Shown here piece by piece: positions 24,536-24,678 of a DNA stretch of 64,000 nucleotides. The DNA comes from a bacterium (GTDB lineage Bacteria > SZUA-79 > Acidulodesulfobacterales > Acidulodesulfobacteraceae). The notes under the pieces are model-generated. The model ran no database searches, was not told where the DNA came from, and was given only the letters and a program-made list of their open reading frames with translations. The stretch covers positions 62,001 through 126,000 of the forward strand of contig QIJE01000001.1 in assembly GCA_003232385.1 (NCBI GenBank), in the 5' to 3' direction. Each line of letters begins with the position of its first letter. Position 1 is the stretch's first letter. The position numbers and the translations under genes are program-made.

Positions 24536-24601
24536 TTTTTTACCTCCAAAATAAATAATTTTATTTAATTTAAATTACCGTTATAACTAAAAAAACTAAA
24601 A

Positions 24602-24653
24602 ACGCCGCAATCAGGGAGAGGTTAAAATACGAACATCTCTTTGATTACGGCGT
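24602..24653 (-). terminator. Intrinsic terminator/attenuator in nifH 5' leader
   Basis: Minus-strand RNA ACGCCGUAAUCA...UGAUUGCGGCGU (12 contiguous pairs including one U-G) followed by UUUUAGUUUUUUUA; lies before the nifH Shine-Dalgarno. Confidence 0.85.
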
Positions 24654-24678
24654 CGTTGCCATATGCGCCCAATTGCGC
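24646..24678 (-). promoter_or_regulatory. Candidate two-hairpin ANTAR-responsive RNA element in nifH leader
   Basis: RNA GCGC[AAUUGG]GCGC, 1 nt, UAUGGC[AACGAC]GCCGUA. Second loop has A1 and G4; its 3' part overlaps the 5' arm of the terminator. Confidence 0.65.

Follow-up and report, generated by a model that had tools for sequence, protein, structure and literature searches.

GnfR, the subject of work by Ueki and Lovley in 2010 (doi 10.1093/nar/gkq652), is said to act by antitermination on nif genes whose promoters contain terminators. This account is supported by the citation of Ueki & Lovley 2010 in a paper on ANTAR systems (PMC8164766), and GSU2822 (gnfR) and GSU0941 (gnfK) of Geobacter sulfurreducens have been named as a response regulator and a kinase of nitrogen fixation (PMC7962754). 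For Pelobacter carbinolicus, Ramesh et al. 2012 (PMC3369931) predicted ANTAR RNAs at three units related to nitrogenase, and they also predicted them ahead of nitrogenase subunits in general; in their seed alignment both hexaloops have A1 and G4. The linkers between the two hairpins, P1 and P2, are 5-12 nt in the eut system of E. faecalis, and induction was impaired when the linker was cut to 3 nt (PMC3369931). EutV stacks G4 on Tyr164 and holds it with Arg142, Lys149 and Glu160, and one hexaloop is enough for a minimal ANTAR site (PMC8934654).

The leader described here precedes nifH, and in our reading of the sequence its terminator is relieved by the REC-ANTAR response regulator of the same operon, a reading to which we give a probability of roughly 0.85; ANTAR antitermination of nifH in itself appears very likely. 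The original prediction had proposed this mechanism and had suggested that the arrangement might be undescribed for nitrogenase. The mechanism is well supported by comparison with relatives, namely by 15/15 leaders, by covariation and by joint absence of element and regulator gene in genus g2, but the novelty for nitrogenase is contradicted by the predictions in PMC3369931 and by the named Geobacter gnfR and gnfK. What is new in these sequences is the variant, with U4 in every P1 loop, abutting hairpins, A or G at position 1 of P2 and a regulator in which Tyr164 has been replaced by His or Leu.

Comparison with known systems

Like the systems EutV/eutP, NasR/nasF and AmiR/amiE, the leader has two hexaloop hairpins of which P2 is exclusive with a terminator, and as in the Pelobacter RNAs of Ramesh et al. 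2012 the tandem hexaloops, with stems of at least 3 pairs, overlap an intrinsic terminator upstream of nitrogenase genes. Unlike in the EutV, NasR and AmiR systems, the linker is 0-2 nt, where Ramesh et al. 2012 ask for several nt, and the P1 loop has U at position 4 in 14/14 aligned rows, which departs from the A1/G4 of their alignment, and the Tyr164 equivalent is His or Leu.

Among the nifH leaders surveyed, the core GGC[RANGRC]GCC with a terminator was found in 30/31 leaders of one Geobacter-like order, nearly always behind a sigma54-like promoter, as against 0/22 from other families. In five examined loci of this order, nifH has a REC-ANTAR gene a short way upstream, an arrangement which suggests that this is the Geobacter group. 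The locus described here shares with that order the sigma54 promoter, the same P2 core and the terminator ahead of nifH, and like GnfK/GnfR of G. sulfurreducens it has a response regulator that would be dedicated to nitrogen fixation; a sigma54 promoter, a leader terminator and a nifH-associated ANTAR regulator, which together mark the GnfR type, can all be read from the sequence. It differs in that the ANTAR gene is a member of the operon, placed after nifX and before nifI1, and does not stand beside nifH, and in that the P1 hairpins detectable in the Geobacter-like order are mostly RxxG and stand 10-16 nt before the P2 core, whereas here P1 carries U4 and abuts P2.

Leaders of other lineages were also inspected. 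In genome G336, the nifH leader (L213/L232) has a sigma54 site, the hairpin AGGC[AAUGGC]GCCU, a weak AU hairpin AAUAA[AAAGUU]UUGUU directly upstream of it and an 11-pair terminator, and the genome encodes one orphan ANTAR response regulator (L231, 7262-7837). The nifH leader of G114 (L225), from an unrelated family, has a 10-pair hexaloop hairpin (AUACAU) and then GAAGAC[AGGGGU]GUCUUU overlapping a 9-pair terminator; this genome has one ANTAR protein, and its nif operon is possibly another under ANTAR control. An apparent hexaloop/terminator overlap in G234, a genome without ANTAR, was rejected as probably due to chance.

Organization of the nif locus

The window (the whole stretch of DNA analysed, 64,000 nucleotides) carries on its minus strand an operon with the order nifH, nifB, a methyltransferase gene, a ferredoxin gene, nifD, nifK, nifE, nifN, nifX, the REC-ANTAR gene and two P-II genes. 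Judging from their order and spacing, the genes at 14104-24535 are presumably co-transcribed. The features are as follows.

24751-24766, minus strand: sigma54-type -24/-12 promoter TGGCATGAAAATTGCT, 9/10 consensus positions, -12 GC at 24753-24752
24665-24678, minus strand: P1 hairpin GCGC[AAUUGG]GCGC, non-canonical hexaloop with A1 and U4, abutting P2
24646-24663, minus strand: P2 hairpin UAUGGC[AACGAC]GCCGUA, hexaloop with A1 and G4, putative ANTAR antiterminator
24601-24654, minus strand: intrinsic terminator, 13 contiguous pairs, excluding P2, with a U tract then running to about 24588
24543-24547 (approximate), minus strand: nifH Shine-Dalgarno sequence GGAGG, read from the sequence
23672-24535, minus strand: nifH, first controlled gene, TIGR01287 over the cut-off, ATG at 24535
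14906-15514, minus strand: REC-ANTAR response regulator (PF00072 and PF03861), putative antiterminator
14104-24535, minus strand: operon expected behind the switch, with a nifI1/nifI2-like P-II pair, colinear in relatives

The NifB protein (22693-23622) matched the radical-SAM part of TIGR01290 alone, below the cut-off, and is without the NifX-like C-terminal domain, NifX being encoded by a separate gene. A UbiE-like methyltransferase gene (21954-22742) lies between nifB and the ferredoxin gene, a position kept in all examined nif operons of the family, g2 included, with 51-69% identity. We know of no role of this methyltransferase in nitrogen fixation.

The comparison covered 30 genomes of the phylum, all of one family, of which 22 have nifH; 15 leaders outside genus g2 were available on a contig, and 14 alignment rows were used for loop counts. 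The sigma54-type promoter predicts a transcription start at about 24740, upstream of the hairpins. A start downstream of the attenuator would have spoken against the mechanism, and all 15 relatives with the attenuator have a sigma54 site scoring 8-10/10 ahead of the hairpins; the promoter is still present in the g2 genomes without it (6/6). Further upstream, at about 24850-24905 of the minus strand, a conserved motif TTTAATCAA, a spacer of about 12 nt and TTAAGCAAA are found, which also occur upstream of nifH in L083, L090 and L091 of the relatives and are possibly an activator (enhancer) site.

The two hexaloop hairpins of the original prediction were both located just upstream of the terminator, and both were folded by RNAfold in a 51-nt piece without the terminator 3' arm (-13.9 kcal/mol); the distal one has A1 and, as had been noted, no G4. 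The 3' arm of P2 doubles as the 5' arm of the terminator, and a longer piece that includes the terminator 3' arm folds into the terminator (-26.6 kcal/mol, z = -7.1, 0/200 shuffles). This terminator does lie between promoter and Shine-Dalgarno sequence, with 13 contiguous pairs (24654-24601) instead of the 12 first claimed. In 15/15 leaders the fold with P2 forced is less stable than the terminator fold by 17-24 kcal/mol, so that termination should be the default. No RxxG hexaloop that could serve as a canonical P1 was found elsewhere or further upstream in the leader, and the window gave no Rfam match at gathering thresholds.

The regulator and its probable link to the leader element

The response regulator belongs, as the original prediction had it, to the nif operon; its gene follows nifX and precedes nifI1, and the protein matches PF00072 (E 2.8e-21) and PF03861 (E 2e-18), both over the cut-off. 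Its closest solved relatives are Rv1626 (1s8n) and EutV (6wsh/6ww6). Aligned to EutV, it keeps the phospho-acceptor Asp (D54), Arg142, Lys149, Glu160, Met172 and Asn173, and by this alignment appears to share with EutV-type regulators the receiver Asp and most of the residues that contact G4; changed are Tyr164 to His (Leu in g6), Arg168 to Gln, Arg175 to Gly and Arg177 to Pro, so that, unlike in EutV, no Arg is aligned at the last three positions. The conserved Asp suggests that the regulator is phosphorylation-dependent. The 30 genomes of the phylum yielded no HisKA_2 kinase, and the HATPase matches of the own genome, including CheA-like proteins, GyrB and kinases near sigma54 activators, gave no clear partner. 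HisKA-type kinases are present, none of them linked to the ANTAR gene, and one of them could be the partner. In the protein tree the ANTAR clade of the regulator is long and ungrouped with nif-adjacent ANTARs, and so gives no support to kinship with these; a common origin of the two nif systems cannot be claimed from it, and the resemblance of their P2 cores may reflect inheritance or convergence. On its sequence P2 is a credible ANTAR site, and the weak P1 is not fatal because a single hexaloop suffices as the minimal site (PMC8934654); P1 is either read by a changed code or merely supports P2.

An association of regulator gene and leader element is seen in the genomes themselves. The own genome encodes one ANTAR protein. 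A covariance model (R1) gave strong matches in 15 genomes, one in each and every one of them in the nifH leader (48.7-65.8 bits). Matches there are expected, as these very leaders had served to build the model, and what is informative is the lack of further strong ones; the other matches reached at most 20.9 bits except for one of 30.6 bits in G015. A second regulon target was rejected, the next match in the own genome having 20.7 bits (E 0.015) and the relatives having no strong one, and the 30.6-bit match (G015:C9) on inspection resembles coding sequence and was taken as chance. The ANTAR gene is present in 13/15 of the R1-matched genomes, and the nif contigs of the other two, G009 and G022, end before the expected place.

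In genus g2, P1, P2 and the terminator are absent from 6/6 nifH leaders. In the three g2 genomes whose operon was examined, the genes are colinear except that no ANTAR gene stands between nifX and nifI1. No ANTAR gene occurs anywhere in 5/6 g2 genomes with nif genes; the exception is G005, where one lies on a separate 3.1-kb contig, L172 (G005:C145), with nifN', nifX, nifI1 and nifI2. This contig duplicates nifX and nifI genes of the ANTAR-less nif contig (L171) of the same genome and is probably bin contamination. In a NifHDK tree, g2 groups with the ANTAR-containing g6 (88/87), which makes joint loss of element and ANTAR gene likely. This loss is one evolutionary event, strong and unreplicated.

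These observations bear on the alternative that best survives, in which the attenuator responds to P-II, to some other RNA-binding protein, to a metabolite or to translation, and the ANTAR protein has its role elsewhere. The non-canonical P1, the want of a HisKA_2 kinase in the 30 genomes and the two P-II genes adjoining the ANTAR gene would suit such an attenuator. We consider it unlikely, since g2 has lost both element and ANTAR gene and yet keeps both P-II genes, each genome has one ANTAR protein and one element, and the P2 hexaloop fits the ANTAR loop rules at G4.

Conservation and covariation of the leader

A lack of conservation in orthologous leaders had been named beforehand as one result that would refute the prediction, and the test came out in its favour. 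P1, P2 and the terminator occur in 15/15 leaders outside g2, with the P2/terminator overlap and compensatory changes, and the 39-nt P1/P2 block has 81% identity across them, whereas the 40 nt immediately preceding it reach 41%. The P2 loop has G4 in 14/14 rows, with A at position 1 in 9/14 (as in the window) and G in 5/14, and the P1 loop reads R-A-N-U in 14/14. The P2 core GGC[RANGRC]GCC is present in 15/15 ANTAR-type leaders and in 0/6 of g2.

Two-sided changes were found at 4 pairs of P1/P2, two of them in P1, and at 5 pairs of the terminator, and the covariation scores of P1/P2 and of the terminator each exceeded 500/500 shuffles and every slid control. Alignment columns 22/35/105 read U-A-U in five sequences and C-G-C in the others, and columns 21/36/104 behave similarly. 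Changes in the P2 5' arm thus go along with changes in the shared strand and in the terminator 3' arm, which matches what is predicted for two mutually exclusive functional folds and bears out the mutual exclusivity first proposed from the shared strand.

The same data weigh on a simpler explanation, that an ordinary hairpin/terminator stabilizes the mRNA 5' end or constitutively dampens nif expression, with P2 incidental and no antiterminator state. The strong energetic preference for the terminator hairpin would agree with it. We regard it as very improbable, because the P2 5' arm lies outside the terminator and still covaries with the shared strand, P2 loop positions 1-2, also outside, are conserved, a U tract follows the terminator in every leader and the structure vanishes together with the ANTAR gene. 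Chance overlap of a strong terminator with a hexaloop hairpin is not rare, a loose detector finding 1 in the window and 0-3 per shuffled window, so that a single sequence proves little and the homologous leaders decide, and these already refute chance by conservation and covariation in 15 relatives and by a P2 core seen in 15/15 leaders against an expectation of 0.01 in total.

Discussion

In the reading that we prefer, the sigma54 promoter at about 24740 would drive the nif operon, and the nascent leader would by default fold into the intrinsic terminator (24654-24601), halting transcription before nifH. The active regulator, probably dimeric and phosphorylated at the receiver Asp, would bind the G4 hexaloop of P2 and perhaps also contact the adjacent P1. 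The bound P2 would stay closed and deprive the terminator of its 5' arm, and read-through would reach nifH, nifB, nifDKENX, the regulator gene and the P-II genes. Comparison of the sequences shows the promoter, both hairpins, the terminator, the exclusive folds and the loss together with the ANTAR gene, and we infer RNA binding by the regulator, the direction of its effect, its phosphorylation and the signal. The regulator gene would lie behind its own terminator, which implies positive feedback, and attenuator and sigma54 activator together would form an AND gate.

Weighing against the reading as a whole are the P1 loop without G4, the gap of 0-2 nt, the change of Tyr164 to His or Leu, the lack of a HisKA_2 kinase in the genomes of the phylum, the separate protein clade and the dependence on one g2 event. 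We put forward tentatively, as somewhat doubtful, that this bacterial family uses a form of ANTAR control with an altered RNA code, in which a regulator without the G4-stacking Tyr recognizes linker-free hexaloops with P1 of R-A-N-U for A-N-N-G and controls the whole nif operon and its own gene via one terminator.

GGC[RANGRC]GCC with a terminator suggests itself as a usable signature of nif leaders under ANTAR control, applicable to at least two lineages, and for the engineering of nitrogen fixation the leader offers a compact transcription switch acting after initiation. The altered P1 loop and the missing linker probe the limits of drift in ANTAR recognition. The sister genus g2, without regulator gene and leader element, is a natural deletion experiment that ties the two together, and ANTAR control of nitrogenase would extend to uncultured bacteria from mine-type metagenomes, which form a phylum of their own in the genome collection searched.
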